A DNA stretch of 64,000 nucleotides. Source: Thermosyntropha sp. (GTDB lineage: Bacteria > Bacillota > Syntrophomonadia > Syntrophomonadales > Syntrophomonadaceae). A program made the translations under genes and the position numbers. The stretch is from contig NZ_JACDOH010000008.1 in the NCBI RefSeq assembly GCF_017656155.1, positions 1 to 64,000 on the forward strand, read 5' to 3'. A model generated the notes under the pieces. It was not told where the DNA came from, did no database searches, and saw nothing but the letters and a program-made list of their open reading frames with translations. Below, in pieces: positions 57,058-64,000 of this stretch (positions within the stretch are counted from its first letter, which is position 1; each line of letters begins with the position of its first letter).

Positions 57058-57269
57058 CTCCTGTATAAAATATTAGATTTTATAAATTGCCCAGTGTATA
57101 GATTTACTTTTTAATTTTATAATATTTTTTATTTTTCTTAAAGGATGCTTGATAATCACTTGACATAGAATTATTTTTCTATAAATAAATTTAATAGCAA
57201 AAAAGGAAAAAGACACAAATAAGCGAAAAGTAAGTATAAATGGATTTGATGTTATGGAGGGATGTTATT

Positions 57270-58097
57270 ATGGGAAGCAGATTTTTAGAGGAGTTCCCGT
57301 GGATAGTGAAGATGATTTTACCGTTATTTCCGAAAGACACAACTTTTTATGCAACTGATCTGGAAAATTTTATTTTTAAAGATACTACCAATTTTGATGT
57401 TCCGTTTGTTAAGGTGGGTGCACCGTTTGCCAAAGGAGGACCGGCGGATAAGGTTATTCAAACTAAACAGCCAGTTATTATGGAAATAGATGAGAGTTAT
57501 TACGGTGTGCCTTTAAAGGTAATTTCAGTTCCTGCTTTTGATGATGATGATAAAAGTAAAGTGGCAGGGGTTTACGGAATGGCTGTTAGGCGGGAAAATG
57601 CCTTTAATTTGCGCAAGATGGCTGACACTTATCAAAAGGGAATGCAGGAGATTGCAGCTGCGATTGAACAGACTGCAGTTGCAGCTTCGGAAATAAGTGA
57701 GAGTGAGCAAAGGCTCAACCGGGAAATCAGTGCTATTTCAGATATCGCGGCTGAGATTATAAAAATCTTAGAGTACATAAGGAGTGTTGCTGATGAAACA
57801 AAAATGTTGGGGCTTAATGCTGCTATTGAAGCAGCCAGGGCAGGAGATGCCGGAAAAGGCTTTGGAGTAGTGGCAGCAGAAATTCGCAAACTTTCAGAGA
57901 ACTCTAAAGAAACCGCCGGGAAAATAAGGGAACTTACCAGACAGATTGAAGAAAAGATAAATTCTGCCTTAAAAAATTCTGAAGTTACTGCCAGGGCGAC
58001 TCAGGAACAGGCTGCAGCGGCAGAGGAAATGAATGCTGGTATACAGGAACTTACCAGTATGTTAGATGAACTTACGCGTATAGCATATGAGATTTAA
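57270..58097 (+). CDS. Soluble methyl-accepting chemotaxis-like protein
   Basis: 275 aa from ATG 57270 behind GGAGGG; an ATG at 57240 is before that site. No membrane helix. Residues 1-110 form a small sensory domain (a PFKDTTNFDVPFVKVGAPF-type pattern of unknown ligand), and residues 125-275 the signalling domain with the hairpin tip ETKMLGLNAAIEAARAGDAGKGFGVVA. It should act in the cytoplasm with CheA/CheW or a related system encoded elsewhere. Confidence 0.88.
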   Translation: MGSRFLEEFPWIVKMILPLFPKDTTFYATDLENFIFKDTTNFDVPFVKVGAPFAKGGPADKVIQTKQPVIMEIDESYYGVPLKVISVPAFDDDDKSKVAGVYGMAVRRENAFNLRKMADTYQKGMQEIAAAIEQTAVAASEISESEQRLNREISAISDIAAEIIKILEYIRSVADETKMLGLNAAIEAARAGDAGKGFGVVAAEIRKLSENSKETAGKIRELTRQIEEKINSALKNSEVTARATQEQAAAAEEMNAGIQELTSMLDELTRIAYEI

Positions 58098-58164: not shown

Positions 58165-58240
58165 GGAGCTGTGGTGTAGCGGTTAACATGCCGGCCTGTC
58201 ACGCCGGAGATCGCGGGTTCAATTCCCGTCAGCTCCGCCA
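58165..58240 (+). tRNA. tRNA-Asp (anticodon GTC)
   Basis: Acceptor GGAGCTG/CAGCTCC, discriminator G, encoded CCA; anticodon loop CTGTCAC gives GTC; T arm GCGGGTTCAATTCCCGT. Confidence 0.96.
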
Positions 58241-58257
58241 TATAATTACAAATAAAG

Positions 58258-58286
58258 TTGACAACTTGTGGTGAGGCAGCTATAAT
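58258..58286 (+). promoter_or_regulatory. Perfect-consensus promoter before tRNA-Phe
   Basis: TTGACA (58258-58263), 17-base spacer, TATAAT (58281-58286): an exact sigma-A consensus, 19 bases before tRNA-Phe. It gives the Phe-Gly pair its own start. Confidence 0.85.
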
Positions 58287-58305
58287 AATTTTTGTAATAT
58301 AATAT

Positions 58306-58381
58306 GCCTCGGTAGCTCAGTCGGTAGAGCAGTGGACTGAAAATCCACGTGTCGGTGGTTCGATTCCGCCCCGAGGCACCA
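58306..58381 (+). tRNA. tRNA-Phe (anticodon GAA)
   Basis: Acceptor GCCTCGG/CCGAGGC, discriminator A, encoded CCA; anticodon loop CTGAAAA gives GAA; D arm GCTCAGTCGGTAGAGC regular. Confidence 0.96.
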
Positions 58382-58387
58382 TGATAA

Positions 58388-58462
58388 GCGGAAGTGGCTC
58401 AGTGGTAGAGCATCGCCTTGCCAAGGCGAGGGTCGCGAGTTCGAATCTCGTCTTCCGCTCCA
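58388..58462 (+). tRNA. tRNA-Gly (anticodon GCC)
   Basis: Acceptor GCGGAAG/CTTCCGC, discriminator T, encoded CCA; anticodon loop TTGCCAA gives GCC. Six bases behind tRNA-Phe, so processed from the same transcript. Confidence 0.96.
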
Positions 58463-58471
58463 TTGAAAGCC

Positions 58472-58500
58472 AAGCGTTACCTGTGTAACGCTTTTATTTT
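58472..58500 (+). terminator. Terminator after tRNA-Gly
   Basis: AAGCGTTAC (58472-58480) pairs with GTAACGCTT (58485-58493), followed by a T-rich run. Confidence 0.85.
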
Positions 58501-58551
58501 GCGATATATACCTGTTCAGTGCTTTATATATAGTAAAACCTCAAGTTTTGC

Positions 58552-58580
58552 TTGCAATAATGGAAAAAAGCTGTTATAAT
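58552..58580 (+). promoter_or_regulatory. Promoter of tRNA-Cys and tRNA-Leu
   Basis: TTGCAA (58552-58557), 17-base spacer, TATAAT (58575-58580). Confidence 0.7.
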
Positions 58581-58615
58581 AATTCCTGCGTCAGAGATTC
58601 GTTTCTTTTCAGCAG

Positions 58616-58691
58616 GGGCGGGTGGCGAAGTGGCTAACGCTGAGGTCTGCAAAATCTCCATTCACCGGTTCGAATCCGGTCCCGCCCTCCA
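58616..58691 (+). tRNA. tRNA-Cys (anticodon GCA)
   Basis: Acceptor GGGCGGG/CCCGCCC, discriminator T, encoded CCA; anticodon loop CTGCAAA gives GCA; T arm CCGGTTCGAATCCGG. Confidence 0.94.
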
Positions 58692-58709
58692 TAGAGAAAA
58701 GAATAACAT

Positions 58710-58798
58710 GCCCGGGTGGCGGAATAGGCAGACGCACGGGACTTAAAATCCCGCGGTTGGTAACAACCGTGCCGGTTCGACCCCGGCCTCGGGCACCA
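58710..58798 (+). tRNA. tRNA-Leu (anticodon TAA)
   Basis: Acceptor GCCCGGG/CTCGGGC, discriminator A, encoded CCA; anticodon loop CTTAAAA gives TAA; long variable arm CGGTTGGTAACAACCG as in class II tRNAs. Confidence 0.95.
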
Positions 58799-58837: not shown

Positions 58838-59096
58838 ATTGGTTTTTTATCAATGGTTAAGGTGGCAGGTATTAGTCTAAATAGTTACCACCCTCTTGTT
58901 TATTATCCAGTTATAAACATAATTCAGAAATATAAAAATGGATTCAGACCTAAAGTTGTAAAATCACATTATAGGATTAAACATTATATTATGTATAATA
59001 AAAAATATAATAAAAGACTTTTTTGAATTATTTTAATTTTAATTGCGATATGAAATAATGGTTTATGATAAAATTTGAAGACGGGAGGGGGCAATT
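58838..59096 (+). other. Leader region of the polysaccharide operon
   Basis: About 260 AT-rich bases. GGTGG (58861-58865) and CCACC (58888-58892) could close a hairpin, and a TATGATAAAAT stretch near 59065 may be part of a promoter. I looked for a c-di-GMP riboswitch core and did not find one. Confidence 0.35.
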
Positions 59097-60200
59097 ATCG
59101 AAAAATTTCGCCGTAAAAATTTGTTTTATTTAGCATTTTTTTTATTTTTACTGCTGTTTTTGTTTTTCTTTTTCCGGAATTATAAAAACGAGAGAAGGAT
59201 AGATATTTTCATTAGCCAGGTAAGATGTTTAATTCCTGAAGAGAGACAGGCAGTTATCATGCTTAAAGATAATATGCTTGATAACCGGGGGCTTATTTTC
59301 CAAAAGATTGAAAAAGGGAAACAGGTTGAGGTTAATCTTTTGGAAAGCATGGGACAGCTTCTTGAATATGCCGACTATACAGGAAATGAAAAGCTAAAAG
59401 AAGAAACCTTAGAACTTATTTTTAAATATTTTGAAACAGGAGAGGGGTATCTTTCCTGGCAGATTTATAAAGGAAAGCCTCAAAAGGCCACTGCTTTGTT
59501 TGATGAGCTTCGGATATTGAAAGTTCTTTTAGAGGACGAGAAGAGCAAGAAAAATGAATTTTATATTAAAACCCTCAAGGATTCGCTTTATAACTTTAGT
59601 TTAAGAGATGGGAAATGGGTGGATTTTTATGATGCAAGATGTGCTGATAAAGCAGATATAATTTCCCTTTTTTACATAGATATTGAAACTTTAAAAGAAT
59701 TGGCCAAAAATGATAAAAGATTTTACAATGCCTCAAAAAAAGCGGAAGAGATACTTTCCAATGCTCCTGTAAATGACTATGGCTTTTTTCCTCAGGTTTA
59801 TAACTATGAAGAACAGGCTTATATATATTCTTCCTCTGCAAATATGGTGGAAAATATTTTGACGAATATGCACTATCTGCATAATGGAGGAGATATTGAT
59901 AAATTTTTGTCTTTTCTAAAGAGGGAAATAGATAAGGGGCATATATACAATATTTATGATTATGACGGCAATCCTGTAAAAAAAGAAGAGTCAACTGCTG
60001 TATATGCCTTATCGTGCCAGCTTTTTTTGGAGGTAGGAGACTATAATTATGCTGATTTGTGTTATAAAAAAATGATGTCTTTTCGAATAAAAAAAGGTAA
60101 ATTAACTGGTGGCTTTGGAGATTCGCTAGCCAATACAGTTTATGCTTATGACCAGCTGGAAGCCCTGAAAACTATGCGGATAAGAGAGGTAAATATATGA
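59097..60200 (+). CDS. Membrane-anchored glycosidase-like protein, non-AUG start
   Basis: About 367 aa if started at ATC 59097. The ribosome site GGAGGGGG (59084-59091) is five bases before ATC, which encodes IEKFRRKN, a basic stretch just before the membrane helix (about residues 10-27). The first TTG (59121) is 29 bases from that site and would remove the basic residues. The outer domain is helical and reminiscent of the six-hairpin glycosidase fold (GH8-like: YGFFPQVYNYEEQAYIYSSSANMVE, STAVYALSCQLFLEVGD). It heads an operon with GGDEF, DUF2334 and glycosyltransferase genes, so a polysaccharide hydrolase role is likely. Confidence 0.7.
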   Translation: MEKFRRKNLFYLAFFLFLLLFLFFFFRNYKNERRIDIFISQVRCLIPEERQAVIMLKDNMLDNRGLIFQKIEKGKQVEVNLLESMGQLLEYADYTGNEKLKEETLELIFKYFETGEGYLSWQIYKGKPQKATALFDELRILKVLLEDEKSKKNEFYIKTLKDSLYNFSLRDGKWVDFYDARCADKADIISLFYIDIETLKELAKNDKRFYNASKKAEEILSNAPVNDYGFFPQVYNYEEQAYIYSSSANMVENILTNMHYLHNGGDIDKFLSFLKREIDKGHIYNIYDYDGNPVKKEESTAVYALSCQLFLEVGDYNYADLCYKKMMSFRIKKGKLTGGFGDSLANTVYAYDQLEALKTMRIREVNI

Positions 60201-61060
60201 AAGCAAGAGATAAGGAAAATAAAAGACAAGATTATCTGTGGTTTAATTTAATCATGGTTATATGGCTGGGAGTTTTAACTTTGGTTTTTGCTTCCAGCTA
60301 TAATATTAATTTTATGCAGTTTATAATGGCAGGTATGGCAATAATTGCTATGATTTTTGCCTATAACTATGGAGTATTGCGTGGTTTAGTTTTTGTATTA
60401 ATTTTAGTTTTTGCCTACGGTTCTTATATTCTTTACGGGGTAGCTGTTACCGGCGAGATTTCCGAGCTTAGGATTGAGCTTATAATGTGGCTTTTTATTA
60501 TGCCTTTAGGTGCTTATCTTTCGGGACAGATGAGCCAGTATATAGCTTCTTTATATTTTCAGAGCGGAGAATGGCAAATGCTTAGAGAAAGGTTAACCAA
60601 GGATGATTTGACCGGTTTTCTCAATAAGCGCGGTTTCTTTGAAGCTCTGGAAAGAGAGATTGACCGAACTAGGAGATTTAAAGATCCTTTATCAATTTTA
60701 ATTATAAAAATTGCCAATTTAAATGAAATGCGGACGGTATATGGGGAAGTGATTTCTAATGCCATTATAAAGTCCTTATCCGAACAGATTGATAATGTAA
60801 TAAGATCCATCGATATAAAAGGAATGCTAGAAACAGATGTTATAGGAATTATCCTGCCTGAGACCAATATAAGTGGGGCGAGAGTGGTAGCAGAAAAGCT
60901 GCATAATTTGGTGGAACTGATTACAGTGGATTTAAAAAAAGGTAGAAAGACAATAAAGCTAAGGATTTCTGTCGGAATTGCAGAATATTCAGATACTATT
61001 CCTGATGCTTATACCTTTTACGCAAAAGCTTTTGAAGATGCGGATAGGGATGTGGGCTGA
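60197..61060 (+). CDS. Membrane protein with degenerate GGDEF domain
   Basis: 287 aa, ATG overlapping the previous stop (ATGA). Four or five hydrophobic helices fill residues 12-118. Residues 132-285 form a GGDEF domain beginning DDLTGFLNKRGFFEALEREI. At the active-site turn the sequence is ETDVI (residues 212-216) instead of GG(D/E)EF, so diguanylate cyclase activity is improbable. The inhibitory-site RxxD is intact as RSID (203-206), exactly five residues before the turn. Known proteins of this type (PelD) bind c-di-GMP and switch on polysaccharide synthesis. It lies between polysaccharide genes. Confidence 0.85.
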   Translation: MKARDKENKRQDYLWFNLIMVIWLGVLTLVFASSYNINFMQFIMAGMAIIAMIFAYNYGVLRGLVFVLILVFAYGSYILYGVAVTGEISELRIELIMWLFIMPLGAYLSGQMSQYIASLYFQSGEWQMLRERLTKDDLTGFLNKRGFFEALEREIDRTRRFKDPLSILIIKIANLNEMRTVYGEVISNAIIKSLSEQIDNVIRSIDIKGMLETDVIGIILPETNISGARVVAEKLHNLVELITVDLKKGRKTIKLRISVGIAEYSDTIPDAYTFYAKAFEDADRDVG

Positions 61061-62704
61061 TTGGCAAAGCTAAAACTGAAATGTAAGGTTTTGGGGAGCT
61101 TGATTTTGTTTCTGTTAATATGGAACTCTGTTTGTCCGCCTGTTTTAGCAGAAGCAGAGGATGAAACTGAAGTAATTATTCTGTATGAGGAGCCTTATCG
61201 TAAGGATAATCAGGTTTTTTCTCTGGTGGATGCCCTTTATGAATATTTAGGACATTTTAAGGTTCAATTTTCAGATTTGGCAGTTGAAGATTGGAAATCT
61301 GGAATTTTAAAGGATTACCAGGTTGTGATATATGTAGGAAGCCGACAGAGAAGCCTTCCAGAATCTATGTTGAAAGAACTAGCGGAGAGGCCAGCCGTAA
61401 TATGGCTGGAAGATAACATAGATGGCCTAGCAAAATTTAAAGGTTGGAATGATTTTGTTTATTACGGTAAGAGCTACTATTATGTCCGCTTGTATGCAGG
61501 GAAAGAAGAAGTTGCTATTGACCCTTACATTCCTTTATATCTGTCTCAGCCTGGCACTGAGGCGAAGGTTTTGGCAAGTGTAAGCAACCTTAAAGATACT
61601 TTGCCTTTAGCCTGGCAGAGAGAAAATGTTTTCTATCTGGGAAAATTTGATTTCGGTTTTCCTTTTTACATACTCTTAGCCGATATTTTGCACAGGGTTT
61701 TGCCTTGTTCGGTTTCCTCCAGTTACAATGTGCTTTTGCGTATAGAAGATGTAACTCCTTTGACTGATCCGGAAAATCTTGCGAATCTGATTGATATTAT
61801 TGCATCTTATGATATCCCGTATGCAGTTGCAGTTACTCCTTTTGACAGACATAAGGGAAAAGAGACCGGCTTGAGCCAGGCTAAAAAGCTGGTTAAAGTT
61901 TTGCGAAAGGTAAGAGAAACCGGCGGTTTTGTAATCATGCACGGATGTTATCATGAAAACTGTTATTCTCCTGAAACAGGGGAAGGCTTTGAATTTTGGA
62001 ATCTTAAAGATGAAAAGCCGATGGAGGGAGAACCGGATTTTACAAGGCAGCGATTGGAAAAGGGACTTGATGAAATGGCTAAATCAGGCATATATCCGGT
62101 AGCTTTTGAGGCTCCCCATTATGCGATGAGCAGCGTAAGCTATAGAGAGTTATCCCGCTATTTTTCAACTTATATAGGACAGATTCAGCTTAGTGATGAA
62201 ACTTATAAAGCTAGCCTGGAATTTCCTTATGTTATTAATTCTTATCGACTTAATGGCATGAAGGTTTATCCTGAAACATTGGGTTATGTTGATCCTCAGG
62301 ATATTATGTCAGTTGAAAAAATAATACAAAAGGCACGATTTCAAAAGATTTTGCCTCATACGGAAACATGCGTTTTTTACCATGGCTTTCTTCCCCCTGA
62401 AGGTTTAGATAAGCTTATTAAAGCTCTTAATAGAGAAGGCTATAAATTTATTTCCTTGGGTGAGGAGGATTTTTGGGTTAAAGGTAAAGCTCTCAGGGTA
62501 TGGGGGGGGAAAGGTATAATGAGATGGGAATCGGATATTACGCCAATAAATCCGGATGACAAGGAACCGCTTTACAAAGGGCCGAAAGTTGTAGCTAAAG
62601 GAATTACAGCCCTGGCTTTGCTTATAACAGGTTTAGTTTTATTTTTCGGTATTATAGTTTTGAATCTGCGCCGCAAAAGGAACAGGCTTTATGAAGAGGG
62701 TTGA
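61061..62704 (+). CDS. DUF2334 polysaccharide deacetylase-like protein
   Basis: 547 aa, TTG start right behind the previous stop. Signal peptide residues 1-31 (cleaved near LAEAEDE), a large outer domain and a C-terminal membrane helix (about 513-537). The DUF2334 core begins VLLRIEDVTPLTDPENL near residue 225, with VTPFD, MHGCYHENCY and FEAPHYAMS providing Asp and His residues of a deacetylase-like metal site. It probably modifies the nascent polymer made by the next gene. Confidence 0.85.
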   Translation: MAKLKLKCKVLGSLILFLLIWNSVCPPVLAEAEDETEVIILYEEPYRKDNQVFSLVDALYEYLGHFKVQFSDLAVEDWKSGILKDYQVVIYVGSRQRSLPESMLKELAERPAVIWLEDNIDGLAKFKGWNDFVYYGKSYYYVRLYAGKEEVAIDPYIPLYLSQPGTEAKVLASVSNLKDTLPLAWQRENVFYLGKFDFGFPFYILLADILHRVLPCSVSSSYNVLLRIEDVTPLTDPENLANLIDIIASYDIPYAVAVTPFDRHKGKETGLSQAKKLVKVLRKVRETGGFVIMHGCYHENCYSPETGEGFEFWNLKDEKPMEGEPDFTRQRLEKGLDEMAKSGIYPVAFEAPHYAMSSVSYRELSRYFSTYIGQIQLSDETYKASLEFPYVINSYRLNGMKVYPETLGYVDPQDIMSVEKIIQKARFQKILPHTETCVFYHGFLPPEGLDKLIKALNREGYKFISLGEEDFWVKGKALRVWGGKGIMRWESDITPINPDDKEPLYKGPKVVAKGITALALLITGLVLFFGIIVLNLRRKRNRLYEEG

Positions 62705-62707
62705 AAA

Positions 62708-63973
62708 ATGCAGGAATTAACAAGAATTGACCTACTTTTTCTTATAGCACTCAGTGCTACCTGGATTTTGCTTTTATATCATGTTTTTTTAACTTATGGC
62801 GGTTATCGCTGTTTTCTAAGAACTTTAGAAGCAGATGAAAAGAGTTACCAAGATATTGTGGGGAATTTGCCTTTTGTAACTGTATTAGTGCCGGCCCACA
62901 ATGAGGAGATGGTTATAGGAAGGACGGTAGATGCCATCTGCCGCAGTGATTATCCTAAAGATAAGCTGGAAGTAATAGTAATAAATGACAGTTCGACTGA
63001 TAAAACCGGAGAAATTTTAGAAAAAAAACAAAAAGAATATTCATTTTTAAAAGTTGTAACTTTAAAACCTCCATTAGGAGCCAAGGGAAAATCAAATGCT
63101 TTAAATAACGGATTTAAGGCAGCTAGTGGAGAATACATAATAGTATATGATGCCGACAATACTCCGGAAAGAAAGGCTATACGCTATCTGGTATCAACTA
63201 TTATTTCTGATCCTAGATTAGGGGCGGTAGTGGGAAAATTTCGCACCCGCAACCGGGATGTAAACCTGTTAACCCGCTTTATAAATCTTGAAACCATAAG
63301 TTTTCAATGGCTGGTTCAGGCTGGAAGGTATTACTGGTTCAGGCTTACCACAATAACGGGAACCAATTTTATTATAAGAAGGGATATACTTGAAAAAGTT
63401 GGGGGCTGGAGGCTTGATGCCCTTACTGAAGATACTGAGCTTACCATAAGAGTATATAATGAAGGCTATTATATAAAATGGATTCCGGAAGCAGTTACCT
63501 GGGAACAGGAACCTGAAAACCTTAAGGTTTGGCTAAAACAGCGCACCAGATGGGCGCGCGGCAATATGTGGGTAATATCTTATTATATACGCAGGATTTT
63601 CAGTTTAAAAAGGAAAATAAGCTGGGATGTGATTTATTTTTTCTTTACCTATGCGATTTTTTTCACTTCTGTGATAATTTCTGATGCAATATTTATATTA
63701 GGAATTACTGGACTAGCTAAGTTGTCGATAACAGGGCCTTTTGTTATTATATGGATAATGGCTTATATTTTATTCATAATTGAAACCTTTATTTCTTTGA
63801 GCCTGGAAAGAGGGGAAGGAAACTTTGAAAACTTTTTGCTTACTGCCTTGATGTATTTTACTTATTGCCAGCTTTGGCTTTATCTGGTTTTTCGGGCAGC
63901 ATGGATAGCTTTGAAAGATAAAATAACCGGTAAAGGGTTTTACTGGTATAAAACGGAAAGGTCGGCGAGATAA
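62708..63973 (+). CDS. Processive family-2 glycosyltransferase
   Basis: 421 aa, ATG four bases after the DUF2334 gene. VTVLVPAHNEEMVIGRTV, the DADN nucleotide-sugar motif, a TEDTEL motif and QRTRWARGN (QxxRW) form the complete set of a processive GT2 such as cellulose, hyaluronan or PNAG synthase. One helix lies before and three or four after the catalytic domain. No PilZ domain is attached, so c-di-GMP control would need a partner such as the GGDEF protein. Confidence 0.92.
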   Translation: MQELTRIDLLFLIALSATWILLLYHVFLTYGGYRCFLRTLEADEKSYQDIVGNLPFVTVLVPAHNEEMVIGRTVDAICRSDYPKDKLEVIVINDSSTDKTGEILEKKQKEYSFLKVVTLKPPLGAKGKSNALNNGFKAASGEYIIVYDADNTPERKAIRYLVSTIISDPRLGAVVGKFRTRNRDVNLLTRFINLETISFQWLVQAGRYYWFRLTTITGTNFIIRRDILEKVGGWRLDALTEDTELTIRVYNEGYYIKWIPEAVTWEQEPENLKVWLKQRTRWARGNMWVISYYIRRIFSLKRKISWDVIYFFFTYAIFFTSVIISDAIFILGITGLAKLSITGPFVIIWIMAYILFIIETFISLSLERGEGNFENFLLTALMYFTYCQLWLYLVFRAAWIALKDKITGKGFYWYKTERSAR

Positions 63974-64000
63974 TGCGCAGATTGATGGCTTTTATTATTA
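63973..64000 (+). CDS. Start of a further gene of the polysaccharide operon (partial)
   Basis: ATG at 63973 overlaps the previous TAA by one base (TAATG). Nine codons are present, beginning MRRLMAFII, a basic then hydrophobic start like a signal peptide or membrane anchor. The rest is outside the window. Confidence 0.6.

Follow-up and report, generated by a model that had tools for sequence, protein, structure and literature searches.

Degenerate GGDEF receptors of exopolysaccharide operons

The closest described counterparts of the locus presented here are the ydaJKLMN operon of Bacillus subtilis (PMC13274460) and the pss genes of Listeria monocytogenes, and this type of operon is both known and experimentally studied in the two organisms. 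The B. subtilis protein YdaK carries an RxxD I-site at residues 202-205 and an SDERI motif, and an RxxR sequence at residues 157-160 was proposed as a secondary I-site (PMC5422440). YdaK does not synthesize c-di-GMP and binds it at ~1 uM, disruption of its I-site inhibits polymer production, and hydrogen-deuterium exchange (HDX) revealed a conformational change upon c-di-GMP binding that is abolished in the R202A variant (PMC5422440; PMC7064775). SigB control of the system is also known in B. subtilis. In the Listeria receptor PssE, DKDDA replaces the GGDEF motif; the protein takes up two c-di-GMP molecules with a Kd of 0.79 uM, and polymer formation requires PssE (PMC4125290).

Here, a Thermosyntropha operon at the end of a 64-kb window, which is the whole stretch of DNA that was analyzed, is identified by gene content and order as ydaJKLMN of B. 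subtilis, near Listeria pssA-E/pssZ. Its second gene, K, very probably encodes the c-di-GMP receptor of a synthase-dependent exopolysaccharide machine of this ydaJKLMN type, which is also pss-like. Since the counterparts of K are YdaK and PssE, the arrangement is already known, and K is a well-supported but ordinary relative of these receptors. The locus places a well-studied signaling-polymer operon of Bacillus and Listeria in a deep clostridial lineage, with Desulfosporosinus and one Dictyoglomaceae genome as close kin. No description of a ydaJKLMN-type operon in clostridia was found in the openly accessible literature, and one may still exist.

Gene order and operon partners

All five genes are encoded on the forward strand and are tightly packed: the stop codon of J (59121-60200) is overlapped by the ATG of K (60197-61060), L (61061-62704) starts one base past the K stop, and the stop of M (62708-63973) is overlapped by the ATG of N, of which only the start (63973-64000) lies in the window. 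N comprises 673 aa and ends beyond the window, at contig position 65994 (L013:8974-10995). For comparison, 80 named loci were gathered by a scan with the GT2 protein M. The initial annotation had proposed a search for the four-gene order in other genomes. Of the 80 loci, 41 have the full order J-K-L-M-N, B. spizizenii (L074) among them, and 13 further loci show the order K-L-M-N; L-M-N-K also occurs. The taxa with J-K-L-M-N or K-L-M-N loci include B. spizizenii, B. velezensis, Brevibacillus, Paenibacillus, Clostridium, Romboutsia, Desulfosporosinus and one Dictyoglomaceae genome.

The neighbors of K had initially been described as a glycosidase-like protein, a DUF2334 protein and a GT2 without PilZ, and this was borne out by Pfam and, for J, by profile and structure matches. 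J is a membrane-anchored glycosidase without a Pfam match, and its family profile retrieves CPF_2247 (3ren) at E 1.2e-95 and PssZ of Listeria (6r2m) at E 1.5e-63. The predicted structure of J (pLDDT 95.8) gives the same two proteins as best Foldseek matches (3ren, TM 0.80; 6r2m, TM 0.69), and on this profile and model evidence J is classified as a GH126 (alpha/alpha)6 barrel of the PssZ/CPF_2247/YdaJ type. Two residues invariant in the J family, E75 and D128, fall in segments aligned with those bearing Glu84 and Asp136 of CPF_2247, the proposed catalytic residues of that enzyme (PMC7479077). A strong Shine-Dalgarno sequence (59084-59091) lies far ahead of the first ordinary start codon of J, a TTG at 59121, and an in-frame ATT at 59094 or ATC at 59097 may be the true start. 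The J of the nearest relative (L016:4448-5465) is broken into two reading frames, by a frameshift or a sequencing error.

L is the YdaL counterpart and carries a DUF2334 domain (PF10096, E 2.1e-40), as does the B. spizizenii protein. M is a processive GT2 synthase (PF13641, E 5.6e-33) and the counterpart of YdaM and PssC; it is 52% identical to M of B. spizizenii, and its score against the NCBIfam PgaC/IcaA model (184 bits) is under the 422-bit cut-off of that model. Pfam detects no PilZ domain on M, and the genome encodes one PilZ protein elsewhere. N, the counterpart of YdaN and PssD, is a BcsB homolog (PF03170, 149.5 bits). The pairing of a GT2 with a BcsB-type partner is also found in the cellulose synthase BcsA/BcsB; BcsA, however, senses c-di-GMP with its own PilZ domain (PMC4125290), which M does not have.

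The operon thus shares with ydaJKLMN its gene order, the DUF2334 protein, the GT2 without PilZ, the BcsB-like subunit and the putative glycosyl hydrolase (PMC13274460; PMC5422440; PMC7064775). With Listeria it has in common the degenerate GGDEF I-site receptor and counterparts of the GT2 PssC, the BcsB-like PssD and the GH126 protein PssZ (PMC4125290; PMC7479077). The arrangement differs, as the Listeria receptor gene stands last in its operon and pssZ (lmo1913) belongs to a separate cyclase operon, whereas J and K head the operon in Thermosyntropha.

The I-site is kept while the cyclase motif is lost

K is a protein of 287 aa with an ATG start and a GGDEF match at residues 135-267 (PF00990, E 2.1e-20). 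The initial annotation had read ETDVI as the replacement of GG(D/E)EF and RSID as an RxxD I-site at the usual spacing, and the sequence and the family alignment confirm both: ETDVI (residues 212-216, 60830-60844) aligns exactly onto the GG(D/E)EF position of cyclases, and RSID (residues 203-206, 60803-60814) precedes it at the usual five-residue gap. Structure prediction, which had been suggested as a check, was performed with AlphaFold2 on 48 sequences and yielded a GGDEF fold with a mean pLDDT of 91.2, for which GGDEF proteins, including 3ign with bound c-di-GMP, are the top structural matches. In this model, the domain is preceded by long hydrophobic N-terminal helices at residues 2-33, 39-58, 60-85 and 93-134, so that the expected membrane helices are indeed predicted and their count becomes four instead of "four to five". 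Four membrane helices followed by a degenerate GGDEF domain, with RxxD five residues ahead of the lost motif, is likewise the layout of YdaK. K differs from YdaK in its sequence, being 19% identical to the B. spizizenii protein, and carries ETDVI where YdaK carries SDERI; the motifs of the B. spizizenii protein are RETD and SDERI, in agreement with those reported for YdaK (PMC5422440).

The motifs were scanned in an alignment of 69 K proteins, including that of the window. RxxD is present in every one of the 69, and none has a canonical GG(D/E)EF; relatives with a canonical GGDEF turn, which had been named beforehand as evidence against a receptor role, were sought and are absent from this set. 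In a second alignment of 48 of these proteins, with a mean column identity of 30%, the only fully invariant positions are M1, T139, R160, R203 and D206, the last two being the R and D of the I-site. R160 (codon at 60674-60676), invariant in 48/48 relatives, falls where a secondary I-site was proposed in YdaK and appears to match the final Arg of the YdaK RxxR. The 11 other GGDEF domains of the same genome behave differently: GG(D/E)EF and the metal-site Asp are retained in 11/11, and RxxD in just 7. The metal-site Asp common to these cyclases is Lys171 in K. In a tree that takes its cyclases from this one genome only, the K sequences, Bacillus YdaK among them, form one group separate from all 11 (support 100/100).

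The pattern of the K family is far beyond chance, and an invariant I-site beside a vanished active site is direct sequence evidence that the binding site is under selection and the active site is not. By the loss of its cyclase motif, K itself is judged to make no c-di-GMP. Across this broad family, the I-site is what selection retains after loss of the cyclase motif.

Proposed mechanism and alternatives

By analogy with YdaK and PssE, we infer c-di-GMP binding by K, activation of the synthase and the identity of the polymer in Thermosyntropha. Cytosolic c-di-GMP would be made by another GGDEF protein of the cell and would bind in dimeric form to the RxxD I-site of K, where R160 would probably complete the pocket. 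Binding would reshape the GGDEF domain, the change would be passed on to the membrane helices, and the M synthase and the BcsB-like N would be switched on to polymerize the glycan and export it. The glycan would then probably be modified by L, with its DUF2334 domain, and trimmed extracellularly by the GH126 protein J. Since M has no PilZ domain, a receptor in trans is needed, and the genome encodes an EAL domain and, besides K, 11 GGDEF domains, which indicates that a c-di-GMP signal is available. No c-di-GMP riboswitch was detected upstream, and an Rfam search of 19 kb returned just five tRNAs. We found no description of K contacting M or N in the literature, model organisms included; the many natural variants of K are material from which the way the receptor switches the synthase could be learned.

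K could alternatively bind c-di-GMP mainly in order to dock a particular cyclase at the synthase and thereby create a local pool, instead of acting as an allosteric switch. In B. subtilis, DgcK and YdaK do bind each other through their soluble portions in an I-site-dependent manner (PMC7064775). On the other hand, overproduced non-cognate cyclases also activate the yda system (PMC5422440), and a search of the genome for 5TM-5TMR_LYT (PF07694), the type of sensor domain on DgcK, gave no hit; the cyclase serving K therefore probably differs from the 5TM type of the model systems. Docking as the main role is accordingly held to be improbable, and the two roles are compatible with each other.

The initial annotation had proposed a PelD-like receptor that controls a GT2 synthase not of the Pel type. 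This was right about the kind of protein, an I-site receptor with a dead GGDEF domain, and about the non-Pel GT2, so that the observation and the general interpretation both stand; the nearest relative is YdaK/PssE and not PelD. The PelD proteins of Pseudomonas aeruginosa and Bacillus cereus resemble K as degenerate GGDEF membrane proteins that bind c-di-GMP at an I-site and enable polymer synthesis post-translationally (PMC7112168), and it is very improbable that K is a receptor of this type transferred into a GT2 operon, even though the logic of a degenerate GGDEF domain, an RxxD I-site and membrane helices is common to both and PelD is also found in Gram-positive bacteria (PMC7112168). PelD possesses a GAF domain and belongs to a pel operon, and K has neither: helix 93-134 runs straight into the GGDEF domain in the predicted structure, which contains no GAF domain, and no pel genes lie beside K, the operon being a complete J-K-L-M-N set and not pelDEADAFG. 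In addition, the PelD domain PF16963 was detected in 0/48 members of the K family at E 0.01, a result that is weak alone because B. cereus PelD escapes the same model in HMMER searches (PMC7112168). Membership of K in PelD is rejected on these three grounds.

That K is a cyclase which remains active or is regulatory, or else a functionless, decaying pseudogene, would fit its retained GGDEF fold but is extremely improbable, as the cyclase motif and the metal-site Asp are gone, the open reading frame is intact, the operon is tight and the I-site is invariant throughout the aligned family. The reading of K as a catalytically dead I-site receptor of a GT2 synthase is consistent with every test applied and with the published work on this operon type.

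Operon variants and a possible link between K and N

Eleven of the comparison loci have no K (L053, L056, L059, L060, L064, L067, L077, L083, L084, L087 and L092). L and M are kept in all 11 and J in 10, and N is missing as well in each of the 10 that have enough flanking sequence. All belong to Bacillaceae or Sporolactobacillaceae, many of the genera being salt-loving, and their M proteins group as a single clade (FastTree support 99), which makes a single event probable. Additionally, a shortened K in locus L048 occurs together with no N detected past M. The joint absence of K and N weakly suggests that the two work together. That K acts on the synthase via the BcsB-like N, with K and N as one signaling-export unit, is a tentative and rather unlikely extension of the proposed mechanism. 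The K-less form of the operon is probably free of this c-di-GMP control, and were K and N such a unit, the polymer of the K-less clade would be free of it.

In a close relative represented by a MAG contig (L015:4314-5417), the reading frame of L is headed by the beginning of a GGDEF domain; this looks like a K-L fusion through a deletion that removed the I-site, or is an assembly error.

Origin and genomic slot

In the K tree, the nearest sequence is that of Clostridia bacterium 41_269 (100/99), followed by Desulfosporosinus and a group that includes the Dictyoglomaceae sequence. M has a match in just four other genomes among 100 related ones, the closest of which (79%) comes from a different family, and in none of 36 same-family genomes. 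The operon is bordered on the left by a cluster of five tRNAs (58165-58795, forward strand) and on the right by nadA. In a genome of the same genus (L132:6225-16993), five tRNAs and nadA-iscR flank ~9 kb of unrelated genes, which encode repeated small proteins and a surface-like protein of 1029 aa. The absence of M from the same-family genomes, combined with the unrelated DNA in the same-genus slot, makes horizontal acquisition likely, and the simplest reading is that the operon was acquired horizontally at a variable tRNA-nadA slot. Vertical descent with loss in all other relatives is less likely, and vertical inheritance within the family is disfavored by the same 0/36. Just upstream of the tRNA cluster, the window encodes a soluble protein of the methyl-accepting-chemotaxis type (57240-58097; MCPsignal, 90 bits), which is conserved in the same-genus genome, where it is located on a different contig.
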